Shown one piece after another: positions 11,217 to 21,922 of a stretch of 21,922 bases of DNA. Source of the stretch: a virus. The translations under genes and the position numbers were made by a program. The notes beneath the pieces were generated by a model. It was not told the DNA's origin and did not search any database. It saw only the letters and a list, made by a program, of their open reading frames with translations. Position 1 is the first letter of the stretch, and every line of letters begins with the position of its first letter. The DNA is taken from positions 1 to 21,922 of IMG/VR virus record IMGVR_UViG_3300043803_003042, one strand, 5' to 3'.

Positions 11217-11426
11217 ATGATTGCGATTTTGTTTGGTGCTTATGTTGTTGCAGGTATTGTATTTTTTCTGAAGAAATCAACAGGAACAATTTTCACTGTT
11301 TTATTCTTACCTTTTTCAATCCTACATGCTTTGATTACAAACCATGACAATAGAAGACCTACAGCCATTTTTCTGCTTGTAATCTTTACAATTTTTGTAT
11401 CAGTAATGTATAAGCTATTCGGCTAA
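11217..11426 (+). CDS. Candidate small membrane protein, antisense to the late operon
   Basis: A 69-aa ORF on the opposite strand from its neighbours. It is highly hydrophobic, with probable membrane segments near residues 2-18, 23-41 and 49-66, separated by KK at 19-20 and NHDNRRP at 42-48. This looks like a real multi-span protein. Codons are ordinary for the window. Its ATG is adjacent to the tape measure ATG (shared CATATG), and its end overlaps the chaperone extension tail-to-tail by 12 nt. It fills the only sizeable gap in the leftward operon. No good promoter or ribosome site is visible. The alternative is a 42-aa leftward ORF (11368-11240, starting MAVGLLLSWFVIK) that ends 23 nt before the tape measure start. 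Only one of the two need be real. A superinfection-exclusion role would be speculation. Confidence 0.42.
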   Translation: MIAILFGAYVVAGIVFFLKKSTGTIFTVLFLPFSILHALITNHDNRRPTAIFLLVIFTIFVSVMYKLFG

Positions 11427-11627
11427 ATCTGAATTGTTGTTATTTGCTTTTTCATTATGCCTAATCCATTTCAATTCTTGTAATCGCATAGCCCATTCTT
11501 CATCTGAAAGACTATCGGGGTCATCAATCCGAAAATAGTAACGCAATAGTGCGTTACCAATTCGGATGTGTTCATCATTGTCGACCTCGACAGCCTCTAA
11601 TACTTTTCCAGTGATGCTTTTTGAACT
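11415..11627 (-). CDS. Tail chaperone C-terminal extension (GT-like), entered by -1 frameshift
   Basis: An open -1 frame relative to the tail chaperone. It begins after a TGA at 11630-11628 and ends at TAG 11417-11415 (70 codons). It contains no ATG, GTG or TTG in its first 27 codons, yet encodes a protein-like, acidic, helical sequence (IRIGNALLRYYFRIDDPDSL then SDEEWAMRLQELKWI). In contractile and lambdoid phages the tail chaperone is made in a short form and a longer frameshifted form, with the two binding the tape measure and tube. Position just before the tape measure gene, lack of a start, and overlap with the chaperone all fit that arrangement. The predicted long form is about 171 aa. 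Confidence 0.7.
   Translation of the reverse strand, partial: SSKSITGKVLEAVEVDNDEHIRIGNALLRYYFRIDDPDSLSDEEWAMRLQELKWIRHNEKANNNNSDLAE
11579..11609 (-). other. Probable -1 frameshift signal in the tail chaperone gene
   Basis: Read leftward, the 0-frame codons are CTG GAA AAG TAT TAG. The sequence G GAA AAG (11609-11603) allows the lysine tRNA to slip from AAG to AAA, the A-AAG type of slip, and is one base away from the lambda site G GGA AAG. After 10 nt comes a small hairpin, TGTCG-AGGT-CGACA (11592-11579). The heptamer is not strictly canonical, so the exact slip codon is uncertain. Another position in the 11627-11597 overlap is possible. Confidence 0.55.
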
Positions 11628-11929
11628 TCAATAATTCCTTCAAGTTCACCGCAAACAGATAAGAATAACATATCATCTGTTTTGATATCGTCATCGCCGC
11701 AAAGCCAGCATTGGTTTAACAAAACTTCATTAAATTTTAAATGGTCTTGTTTTCCTGCTACTCCTGCGTATGAAAGAACTTTTCGTGTAGGTGCTTTTAA
11801 CCAACATTGTTTACCACCTTCAAGCTTAATACGGTAAATTTTACCATGCTTGTCTTTCAATTCTTTGATTTGCTCTTCTGTCAAATCAACAAATCCATTG
11901 TTTGTTTCGATTGCCTCTTTATTTACCAT
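11597..11929 (-). CDS. Tail assembly chaperone (gpG / Mu gp41-like)
   Basis: A 110-aa acidic, helical protein placed between tail tube and tape measure, the tail chaperone position. It has LTEEQIKELKDKHGKIYRI near the N-terminus and NEVLLNQCWLCGDDDIKTDD in the middle, a pattern familiar from Bacteroidetes phage proteins at this locus. I chose the ATG at 11929, six nt past the tube stop, over an upstream ATG at 11962 that would overlap the tube gene by 28 nt and add 11 unlikely residues. It would coat the tape measure before tube polymerisation. The gene ends at TAG 11597, with an open -1 frame continuing beyond. Confidence 0.75.
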   Translation of the reverse strand: MVNKEAIETNNGFVDLTEEQIKELKDKHGKIYRIKLEGGKQCWLKAPTRKVLSYAGVAGKQDHLKFNEVLLNQCWLCGDDDIKTDDMLFLSVCGELEGIIEVQKASLEKY

Positions 11930-11934
11930 GACTA

Positions 11935-12342
11935 CTAAACATTTTGTTGGATATCTAAACAAATAAAAGGAAGTGTTATTTCTTGAAATTTATCTCCTTG
12001 TTTTGTTCCTTTTTTAGCTTCAGTAAATCTACAACCTACCATGCGATCTGTTTTTAAAATATCAGGTGGATTTCCATAAGTACAACTTATATCGATTGAA
12101 AGTGATAATACTGAACCTTTTCCTGCAACAACTAATGCTTCATAGTCACTTTGTAACATTGTAACATTACCTTCATAGGAAAAATTTCCTGATTGAATTG
12201 CTTTTGGTTTTCCACCTTTACCATATACAACCTCACGTTCTACTTTTTCGGTGTATTCAACACCTCTCAGACCTAGCAAGTCCTTTCCACCTACAATCAC
12301 TGTAGTGTCTGAAAATTCGTATTCTCTTGAATTAAATGACAT
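11935..12342 (-). CDS. Tail tube protein
   Basis: A 135-aa protein downstream of the sheath gene, with the size and strand-rich pattern of contractile tail tube proteins (Mu gpM-like). Visible elements are an N-terminal EYEFSDTTVIVGG, a LLGLRGVEYTEKVEREVVYG strand pair (about 23-42), YEGNVTMLQSDYEAL with a helix, and a C-terminal FQEITLPFICLDIQ strand. It forms stacked hexameric rings through which DNA passes. The sheath-tube-chaperone-tape measure order is the standard one. Confidence 0.82.
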   Translation of the reverse strand: MSFNSREYEFSDTTVIVGGKDLLGLRGVEYTEKVEREVVYGKGGKPKAIQSGNFSYEGNVTMLQSDYEALVVAGKGSVLSLSIDISCTYGNPPDILKTDRMVGCRFTEAKKGTKQGDKFQEITLPFICLDIQQNV

Positions 12343-19526: not shown

Positions 19527-20777
19527 ATGAATATCTTTAATAAAATAGGAATAGGACTAAGTAATATTATAAGCCCATCCACAAAACAATTATCTTCAAA
19601 CAATACAAACTCATTAAAAAATCAAAAGATTTTACCTTGGAAATTGAAATCAACTTCCAAAATAAAAAATGATATCCGTAGCTGGGAACGTGCTTACAAC
19701 AATGCAAATGCCGAAGAACCTAAAAACTTTGATTTACAATTATTGTTTGAAGATATTCGATTAGACTCATTGCTAAATTCACAAATTGAAAACAGAATTA
19801 ATCGCTGTTTAGGTGCTGATTTTTCATTGGTAAATAAAAAGGGAGAGGTAGACCAGGAACAAACCGATTTGCTTCGTAGAATGACCACGTTTAGGAAAAT
19901 AACACGTGAAATTTTGAACAGCAATTATTATGGTTACTCATTAGTTGAATTACAACTCATAAAAATGCCTGACAATTCATTTAACGTGGATGTGTCTGCT
20001 ATACCACGTACCAATGTAGTGCCACAATCAGGTAAATTTTATCCTGATTATTCAGAAGACAAATTCATCCTGTACAGAACAATGAATGAATTTGGTACTT
20101 ACATTTTAGAGTTTGAAGGTAATGAACGTTTTGGTTTACTAAACAAAGCCATTCCGCATATATTAATGAAACGTTTTGCACAATCATGTTGGTCAGAATT
20201 ATGTGAGATTTATGGTATACCACCACGTGTAATGAAAACAAATACACAAGACCCTGATATGTTGGCAAGAGCCGAGGCAATGATGCGAGATACAGGTGCA
20301 GCTGCTTGGTATATTATTGATGAACACGAAAAGTTTGAATGGGCTACAGGTGTACAAACCAATGGTGATGTTTACAAAAACCTGATCACTTTGTGTTCAA
20401 ACGAAACAAGTATGTTGATTTCAGGAGCAATTATCGGACAAGATACCGTGAACGGTTCCAACTCTAAAGAGAAAGCATCACAAGACATATTATCCGACCT
20501 TGTGAAAGCCGATAAAGCGTATGTAGAAGAATGTTGGAATAATCAAATTGTACCTGCTTTAATCAAATTAGGTATCTTAAAAAAAGACATTACTTTCCGT
20601 TTTGATGCAGTAGAAGATTTAGGAGAATTATGGACAAGAACAAAAGACACTTTTCCATTTATGAACGTAAATCCTGAATTTGTAAAAACAAAGTTTGGTA
20701 TTGATGTATTAGGCTTAAAAGACAGCGCCAATAACGGAAACACAAAACTAAAAATAGACGATAGTTTTTTCGTTTAA
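19527..20777 (+). CDS. Portal protein (DUF935, Mu gp29-like)
   Basis: A 416-aa portal subunit. Landmarks: WERAYNNANAEEPKNFDL and LFEDIRLDSLLNSQIENRIN (about 52-92), a conserved N-terminal block of DUF935, then SNYYGYSLVELQLI (about 132-145). Further on are FAQSCWSELCEIYGIPPRV, a hallmark stretch of the gp29 family, and ISGAIIGQDTVNGSNSKEKA (about 296-315). It is shorter than Mu gp29. The portal forms a dodecameric channel for DNA entry and exit. The last codons, AGT TTT TTC GTT TAA, hold the slippery heptamer described separately. Ribosomes that do not slip make this 416-aa form. Confidence 0.92.
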   Translation: MNIFNKIGIGLSNIISPSTKQLSSNNTNSLKNQKILPWKLKSTSKIKNDIRSWERAYNNANAEEPKNFDLQLLFEDIRLDSLLNSQIENRINRCLGADFSLVNKKGEVDQEQTDLLRRMTTFRKITREILNSNYYGYSLVELQLIKMPDNSFNVDVSAIPRTNVVPQSGKFYPDYSEDKFILYRTMNEFGTYILEFEGNERFGLLNKAIPHILMKRFAQSCWSELCEIYGIPPRVMKTNTQDPDMLARAEAMMRDTGAAAWYIIDEHEKFEWATGVQTNGDVYKNLITLCSNETSMLISGAIIGQDTVNGSNSKEKASQDILSDLVKADKAYVEECWNNQIVPALIKLGILKKDITFRFDAVEDLGELWTRTKDTFPFMNVNPEFVKTKFGIDVLGLKDSANNGNTKLKIDDSFFV

Positions 20778-20795
20778 CCCCCGAACAAACGGGGG
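20765..20795 (+). other. Candidate programmed -1 frameshift signal between portal and gpF
   Basis: Slippery heptamer T TTT TTC at 20765-20771, in the correct phase with the portal codons (AGT TTT TTC). A 6-nt spacer (20772-20777) contains the portal stop TAA. Then comes a perfect 6-bp hairpin CCCCCG-AACAAA-CGGGGG at 20778-20795. Slippage by one base reads TTT CGT TTA ACC CCC and continues without a stop through the gpF frame. The parts and spacing are those of classical -1 frameshift sites. The hairpin lacks a proper T-run after it (ATTATTTC), so it is a poor terminator. Confidence 0.72.
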
Positions 20796-21922
20796 ATTAT
20801 TTCAAAAGTCTACATTCAAGAGTACATTCATTATATGCTTGCACATGTGATATTTGTCAAGATATTAAATTTCATAAACTATCAGCTGACACAGGACTGA
20901 TTAAAGAGTTATTAAACACCTTTTCAAAAGCGTTTAAAGCCTTACACGAATTTCAATCTTACAAAATATCAGATTTACAAAATGTTCCGGAATATAAGAG
21001 TGCCATACTTGATACTTTTGATATTTTAAAACAATCCGTATCTGAAGGAATAAAAGATAATACTATTTCAGGCACTTTAAAAACTGCCTTATTAAGCGAT
21101 GTTTTTTTGTTTTCAGCATTAAGAACCCATGCGCAACTATTTGAAGCCTCACGTTTGTTAAAAACCGCAGATGGTGGCATCAAACCATTCAACCAATTTG
21201 CACAGGATATTGCTTCAATCAACAAAAATTACAACGAAAATTATCTTCAAGCAGAATATCAATTTGCAACTGCTTCGGCTTTGATGGCTCAAAAATGGAG
21301 TGATGTTGAAGAAAACCAAGACCGTTATAATTTACAATACCGAACCGCAGGAGATGAAAAAGTAAGAGCGTCACACCAAGCACTGGATATGATTACTCTT
21401 CCTGCATCTGATACGTTTTGGAATACATATTATCCACCAAATGGGTGGCGTTGCAGATGTGATGCTGTCGAAGTATTGAAAGACAAATACGATGTTTCGG
21501 ATTCTGAATTAGCAATTAAAGCAGGAGAAAAAGCCACAACACAACTTGATAAAAATGGAAAAAACAGACTTGAAATATTTCGATTTAATCCTGGTAAGCA
21601 AAAGGTAATTTTTCCACCAAAGCACCCATACCGAAAATTACAAGGCGCAGATGGAGTTGTGAAAACCTACGATAAAAAACTATTAAGTAATCAGCGTAAA
21701 GAAATTAGACTATGGGCTAAAGATAATTTAGTAGGGCAAACAGTAAAACACCCTAAAATTGATAAGCCAATACAATTCACAACTACTGGTATCAAAGAAG
21801 CGTTAAACCAACCACATAAAAATATTTTTGATAAGAATGAAGCCGTGAGAGATATTAAACAACTTATTCATAATTCAAAATTTGTTAGTAAGGGAATAGA
21901 TAAAGATGGTGGGAAAAAAGAA
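20765..21922 (+). CDS. gpF-like minor head protein, no start codon, cut by window end
   Basis: An open frame of 386 codons, -1 relative to the portal, bounded on the left by TAG 20762-20764 and still open at the window edge. It is unmistakably a Mu gpF / SPP1 gp7-type head morphogenesis protein: YRTAGDEKVRASHQALDM then FWNTYYPPNGWRCRCD (about residues 195-240), the signature of the family. An N-terminal CTCDIC cluster may bind metal. After the signature, a region with RKEIRLWAKDNLVG and TTTGIKEALNQPHKNIF resembles the BECR-fold (barnase/EndoU/colicin/RelE-like) domains often attached to gpF, but is incomplete here. No ATG, GTG or TTG occurs in the first hundred or so codons, so expression as a frameshift fusion to the portal is the likely route. 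Confidence 0.85.

Follow-up and report, generated by a model that had tools for sequence, protein, structure and literature searches.

A candidate -1 frameshift site between the portal and MuF genes of Mu-type phages from Bacteroidota

In the tail-chaperone genes of lambda (gpG/gpGT) and SPP1 (17.5; UUUUUUC) a -1 frameshift fixes the ratio of the products (PMC5009743; PMC6316719), and in T3/T7 gene 10, phage A2 and the Listeria phages A118, A500 and PSA part of the capsid copies are C-terminally extended by recoding (PMC5009743). For the bacterial dnaX gene (tau/gamma), the shift truncates the product in E. coli and extends it in some bacteria, while Thermus uses transcriptional slippage on a run of nine A or T (PMC5009743). 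DNA passes into and out of the phage head by way of the portal ring. SPP1 gp7 binds the portal (gp6) and enters the procapsid in few copies (PMC6316719), and in-frame portal-MuF fusions are present in Microbacterium phages of clusters EA and EB (PMC7302621). Recoding is thus well established for the tail chaperones and capsids of phages, and its use at the portal appears to be new: no report of a portal-MuF frameshift was found in the open-access literature (subscription papers and preprints were outside the search).

Here we analyse a window of 21,922 nucleotides, an IMG/VR contig (G000) from a Mu-type tailed phage. On its + strand are genes for a terminase-small-like HTH protein (from 17100), a large-terminase candidate assigned by position without a Pfam match (from 17537), a Mu gp36-like adaptor (from 19072) and the portal (Portal_Mu/DUF935; 19527-20777; PF06074, E = 1.3e-63; TAA stop at 20775-20777), whereas the - strand encodes the prohead protease, capsid and tail proteins. 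The 3' codons of the portal gene read GAT AGT TTT TTC GTT TAA, and the slippery heptamer T TTT TTC (20765-20771, +) is observed in portal phase (AG-T TTT TTC GTT TAA), as at the junctions of relatives. It is followed by a 6-nt spacer, GTTTAA (20772-20777, +), which includes the portal TAA, and by a putative stimulatory hairpin (20778-20795, +) composed of CCCCCG (20778-20783), a 6-nt loop (20784-20789) and CGGGGG (20790-20795). This perfect 6-bp GC hairpin has a folding energy of -12.4 kcal/mol (z = -2.4; 3 of 200 shuffles were equally stable), and its stability and covariation are kept in relatives. After a slip the next codon would be CGT (20771-20773).

The gpF/MuF frame, -1 relative to the portal, opens exactly at the heptamer (the preceding codon is TAG) and comprises 386 codons from 20765 to the contig end at 21922 (+), where the C-terminus of gpF is missing. 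It has no start codon of its own near its beginning; the earliest ATG, GTG or TTG is the TTG of codon 115 (21107-21109, +). The earlier note had reported the in-phase heptamer, the hairpin 6 nt downstream and a -1 frame of more than 100 codons without a standard start, and all three are present as it described. A programmed -1 ribosomal frameshift site is expected to have an X XXY YYZ heptamer in phase with the 0 frame, a structure downstream of a 5-9 nt spacer, a -1 ORF that is open across the site, under protein-level selection and without its own start, and conservation beyond protein-coding need. The window meets these expectations, the second with its 6-nt spacer and 6-bp stem and the last through codon choice and through one stem being read as different peptides (see below).

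The protein encoded by the -1 frame belongs to the Phage_Mu_F (MuF/SPP1 gp7) family since its PF04233 domain (21194-21466, +; residues 144-234) scores above the curated cut-off (48.7 versus 29.6 bits) and lies downstream of a portal gene. Further on is a partial LPD3 cargo-type domain (PF18798; 21689-21907, +; residues 309-381). As polymorphic MuF cargo would lead one to expect, the C-terminal domains of gpF vary, with LPD3 in the window and PBECR2 in a locus of Porphyromonas phages (L015). In an AlphaFold model of the window gpF (mean pLDDT 85), residue 115 is inside a helix (residues 103-130; block-mean pLDDT 85-94), which makes TTG 21107 an unlikely start, and initiation there would cost the protein approximately 110 residues, confidently predicted helices among them. 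Comparison of the model with the PDB using Foldseek gave nothing meaningful. As a side observation, a second start-less -1 ORF of 70 codons (11415-11627, -) overlaps the end of the ORF at 11597-11989 (-) before the tape-measure gene, an arrangement that resembles lambda G/GT tail-chaperone frameshifting; inspection by eye revealed no perfect X XXY YYZ in this overlap (CAA AAA GCA ... CTG GAA AAG).

We propose that some ribosomes would pause at T TTT TTC (U UUU UUC) because of the hairpin 6 nt beyond it, slip by -1, bypass the TAA and enter gpF, generating a portal-gpF(MuF) fusion of at least 799 amino acids (415 from the portal and 384 from gpF; the junction-spanning peptide would be, for example, ...DDSFFRLTPEQTG...), while the rest would stop and yield plain portal. 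The portal ring would then be built from short and long subunits, and MuF would reach the portal vertex by covalent linkage. We assign a probability of roughly 0.93 to the production of a fusion by a -1 slip and of plain portal otherwise, an estimate based on sequence without protein, Ribo-seq or reporter data; that ribosomes slip in the host, how often they would do so, and that the portal ring inside the head thereby receives a fixed number of MuF copies are all inferences.

Searches for related loci with single window proteins gave almost nothing and a 12-row portal alignment yielded no searchable block, and relatives were instead collected using narrower alignments, pattern scans and a genome search with PF06074. 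In phage records, tblastn aligned gpF from its very first residue with gut phage contigs (L003-L005) and Bacteroides phages; the junctions of these relatives (TTTTTTCGACTGAGCCCTTCTGACTACGAAGGGC, TTTTTTCGACTGAGCCCCGATGATTATTCGGGGC etc.) have the identical heptamer and spacing, stem arms that are different but complementary, and gpF in the -1 frame. A blind scan of IMG/VR with a DNA pattern only (heptamer, spacer and stem; TTTTTTCGNNNNRGCCCCN{3,12}GGGGC) returned at least 120 contigs. Among the matches listed, 119 of 120 adjoin a portal and/or gpF match; where a portal match is present, the heptamer follows the phase of the portal, with two exceptions. The same pattern applied to 85,000 bacterial species genomes gave portal-gpF junctions in at least 73 of the 118 matches listed. 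Also among the matches listed, 67 of the 69 tabulated genome junctions are from Bacteroidota, mostly Bacteroidales (the remaining two are metagenome bins), and 46 tabulated loci have no MAG or uncultured label. The site is carried by the common and culturable Bacteroides prophages hankyphage p00 and BKO1-TP4. The other 45 bacterial-genome matches listed are scattered or correspond to a Pseudomonas leader hairpin: in L137, L142, L158, L175 and L182, TTTTTTCGTTTTGGCCCC...GGGGCC is located shortly upstream of a nitrate-transporter-like gene and is probably an attenuator unrelated to portals.

For an unbiased sample, loci were found by the portal protein alone (PF06074 in Bacteroidota genomes plus the related-locus search) and subsequently classified, with expected numbers of slip sites estimated from equally long windows at other places in these ORFs. 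Of 42 non-redundant split -1 loci found in this way, 38 have a slip site at the junction (0.6 expected), as do 25 of 27 fused loci (1.7 expected), showing that the site is specific to the portal-gpF junction. Judged from the collection scans, this same-ORF null and the codon-choice test described next, the window element is far above chance.

The Phe-Phe pair at the junction is encoded as T TTT TTC in 60 of 61 protein-found loci, compared with 2 of 75 Phe-Phe pairs elsewhere in the same portal ORFs. The codon containing the first T of the heptamer specifies ten different amino acids and always ends with T (174 non-redundant sites); since these sites were picked for having the heptamer, only the amino-acid diversity is informative. 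Of 165 relatives with a strong stem (mostly 6-8 bp), 151 have a spacer of 5 or 6 nt, and the mean folding energy dips sharply only at the site (mean z of -2.0 versus -0.22 for the upstream control). Stem pair 6, which the search pattern did not specify, forms a Watson-Crick pair in 132 of 146 sequences (49.5 ± 5.1 when shuffled) and is represented by four pair types (GC 68, TA 32, AT 23, CG 9), pair 7 is paired in 87 (43.7 ± 4.9 when shuffled), and for the outer pair 0 no covariation was found. The covariation score for 30 sequences of equal length is 0.304 versus 0.088 for shuffled sequences and at most 0.079 for slid structures. Conservation of heptamer, spacer and stem with synonymous constraint, which the earlier note had put forward as a check, is hence borne out by compensatory changes as well as by codon choice.

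Whole stems also differ among the protein-found loci, e.g. CCCCCG/CGGGGG (window), GCCCGA/TCGGGC, AGCCCTTC/GAAGGGCT and AGGGCTGG/CCAGCCTT, and L330 and others, which count against the proposal, have a stem of other sequence or a long loop. A protein motif (AP..GA, 0 frame) was considered as the cause of the stem and rejected: the GCCCC..GGGGC stem is read as Ala-Pro..Gly-Ala in the 0 frame in one group and as Ser-Pro..Gly-Leu in the -1 frame in the other main group, so no single peptide accounts for the stem. Among the loci that speak against the proposed frameshift are three with a damaged stem. In L256, L260 and L263, which also count against it, the T TTT TTC and the 5' arm are kept, the 3' arm is lost and the downstream gpF is another version, which looks like recombination inside the element. 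Beyond the stem, substitutions in the gpF frame preceding any ATG are distributed as 51/41/124 over codon positions 1/2/3 (18 disjoint pairs of related loci), showing at the level of sequence that protein-level selection acts on this part of the frame in relatives.

In the genome sample, 44 split loci overlap in the -1 register, 5 in the +1 register (all with an ATG), and 26 are fused in one ORF. Single-frame homologues, which the earlier note had suggested looking for, thus exist: L015 has a single ORF of 853 amino acids with PF06074, PF04233 and the nuclease-like PBECR2 domain, and portal and gpF are also fused in MT838538 (L011) and many others. Among the fused loci, an in-phase T TTT TTC with its stem persists at the junction in L011, L015, L023, L028, L036, L048, L082, L369, L298 and others. 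Junctions without T TTT TTC mostly have another in-phase heptamer (A AAT TTT, T TTT TTT, G GGA AAG or A AAA AAG) or a run of A9-A11, and those with A AAT TTT usually have their own hairpin downstream as judged by eye. Fused loci are found with an A tract (L002, L013, L299, L349, L373, L378 and L389; in most of them exactly ten A, the -1 stop following within 27 nt), with A AAT TTT (L355, L384 and L385) and with G GGA AAG plus a GC hairpin (L340 and L342), and split loci with an A9-A11 tract at the junction are L006, L014, L324, L328, L329, L386 and L391. The layout of the earlier note, in which the shift extends the portal into gpF, holds for the window but is not the only one among relatives.

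Since fused relatives keep the slip site, a mirror-image, dnaX-like use must be considered, in which a -1 shift would release a short portal. In these relatives the -1 stop is 6-27 nt further on at A9+ and A AAT TTT sites and 45-96 nt at T6C sites. All eight A9+ loci have the -1 stop within 27 nt (8/8; 0.49 expected each); in fused T6C loci it is no nearer than chance and is not claimed as added evidence. The dnaX-type arrangement, a 0 frame giving the long product and an early -1 stop, is not met in the window, only in the fused relatives. On a tree of 118 portals less than 62% alike (a quick tree under a site-homogeneous model) the fused and split states require at least 17 changes, and the starred branches force 15 for the fused label. 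L023, L036, L369, L082, L015 and L298 are fused, widely diverged and have kept the element, which argues against a relic. As far as these sequences tell, it is the slip that is conserved and not the gene layout.

Alternatively, gpF might be made alone, through internal or non-AUG initiation or through termination-reinitiation at the portal stop, with heptamer and hairpin being incidental. A strong Shine-Dalgarno sequence is not known to be required in Bacteroidota, and in hankyphage-type loci (L008/L012) an ATG that overlaps the portal stop (...TTTAGAATGGTGATG...) is annotated as the gpF start, so that gpF may also be made alone there; together with the conventional gpF ATG of a few relatives (L009 and L010 from Flavobacterium phages, L338 and others) this indicates that the fusion is not essential everywhere. 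However, the window has no start before codon 115, itself in a high-confidence helix, homology begins at the heptamer, and the position of the first ATG is scattered among relatives, from 9 to 1020 nt downstream. The expectation that relatives lack a gpF start is accordingly met insofar as no start codon is conserved, even though a minority has a usable ATG. Separate synthesis would also leave the codon constraint on the heptamer, the covarying stem and the slip sites in fused ORFs unexplained, and we give it only a slim chance. In the public annotation of L006 (Winogradskyella phage Peternella_1), gpF begins 98 nt past the portal stop, at a GTG; where gpF has been annotated in this way from an in-frame GTG or ATG beyond the slip site (L006, L008/L012), its N-terminus is probably cut short. 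Slippage of RNA polymerase on a homopolymer, rather than of the ribosome, is possibly used at the A9-A11 tracts, which occupy the same junction in both split and fused relatives, and in Thermus dnaX a run of nine Ts yields the two products in about equal amounts (PMC5009743). In the window, as in most relatives, the run has six T and then a C, the spacer is conserved and the hairpin covaries; spacer and hairpin are called for by a ribosomal mechanism only, which speaks against polymerase slippage at T6C, as do the mixed heptamers A AAT TTT and G GGA AAG of other lineages. For the window we judge transcriptional slippage to be very unlikely.

A true single ORF could also appear split as a result of a homopolymer sequencing or assembly error, or of prophage decay, and single-ORF fusions do exist, as do two T7 alleles that merge the portal and gpF frames with spacer and stem kept (L072, and L165/L294 from a Flavobacterium covae chromosome; either natural or sequencing errors). 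Against this, T6 with the same -1 register is present in 156 non-redundant split loci, including loci without a MAG or uncultured label, and a stem would be irrelevant to an error. The homopolymer error was rejected because the site recurs in independent genomes, in hundreds of contigs with isolates included, and we regard the chance of an error or of decay as negligible. The hairpin might instead serve as a transcription terminator or as some overlapping regulatory element at this gene border, as its GC-rich stem directly 3' of a stop codon suggests, but this is scarcely credible given the fixed distance of 5-6 nt from the heptamer and the mid-gene position in fused ORFs; the terminator reading was rejected since no T run follows the hairpin on either strand. 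Ribosomal -1 slippage into gpF therefore remains our preferred reading. That such a fusion is made, as inferred in the earlier note, is strongly supported by the sequence comparisons, but the fusion may not be a small minority product, considering that fused relatives keep the site.

The presence of the same kind of site in both layouts is, as a guess, easier to reconcile with a ratio near one half than with a few percent. Selection may maintain a ratio device that is independent of layout: the portal rings of Bacteroidota Mu-type phages would combine short portal subunits and portal-MuF chimeras in a set proportion, and the device would have been rebuilt using several ribosomal heptamers as well as polymerase slippage on A9-A11, at an efficiency that is probably high, perhaps near half, and not a few percent as in Gag-Pol. 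We consider this generalization evenly poised between right and wrong. Recoding at the portal would explain how a few MuF proteins, many of them bearing nuclease or toxin-like domains, come to sit at a single vertex; it predicts that cryo-EM and mass spectrometry would reveal mixed portal rings, and it would mean that a translational ratio is conserved while the gene layout flips repeatedly. Public gpF start sites (e.g. Peternella) and fused portal annotations would need revision.

Compared with known systems, the element is like lambda gpG/gpGT in being an in-phase heptamer in a phage structural module that adds a C-terminal extension to the upstream protein. It differs in that it affects head/portal genes, being located between the PF06074 portal and the PF04233 MuF gene and not, as a G/GT-type site would be, between the tail tube and tape-measure genes, and also in that the slip site is present in single-ORF fusions and that a covarying hairpin is the rule. 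In capsid frameshifts the capsid is extended, often by Ig-like domains, whereas here the portal would gain MuF, which elsewhere is a separate gene. As for dnaX, the products would share the N-terminus and the three solutions (truncation, extension and transcriptional slippage at nine A/T) seem to recur; unlike dnaX, these are phage assembly genes using T TTT TTC, A AAT TTT and G GGA AAG plus A tracts, and the many layout changes fall within one phage group. The Microbacterium EA/EB fusions are plain gene fusions for which neither a slip site nor a short portal is reported (PMC7302621). Gene order and function are the same as for phage Mu gp29/gpF (D108 29/30) and SPP1 gp6/gp7. The D108 annotation gives gene 30 as a CDS of its own that shares 20 nt with gene 29, and in SPP1 association with the portal is by strong binding, where we propose fusion.
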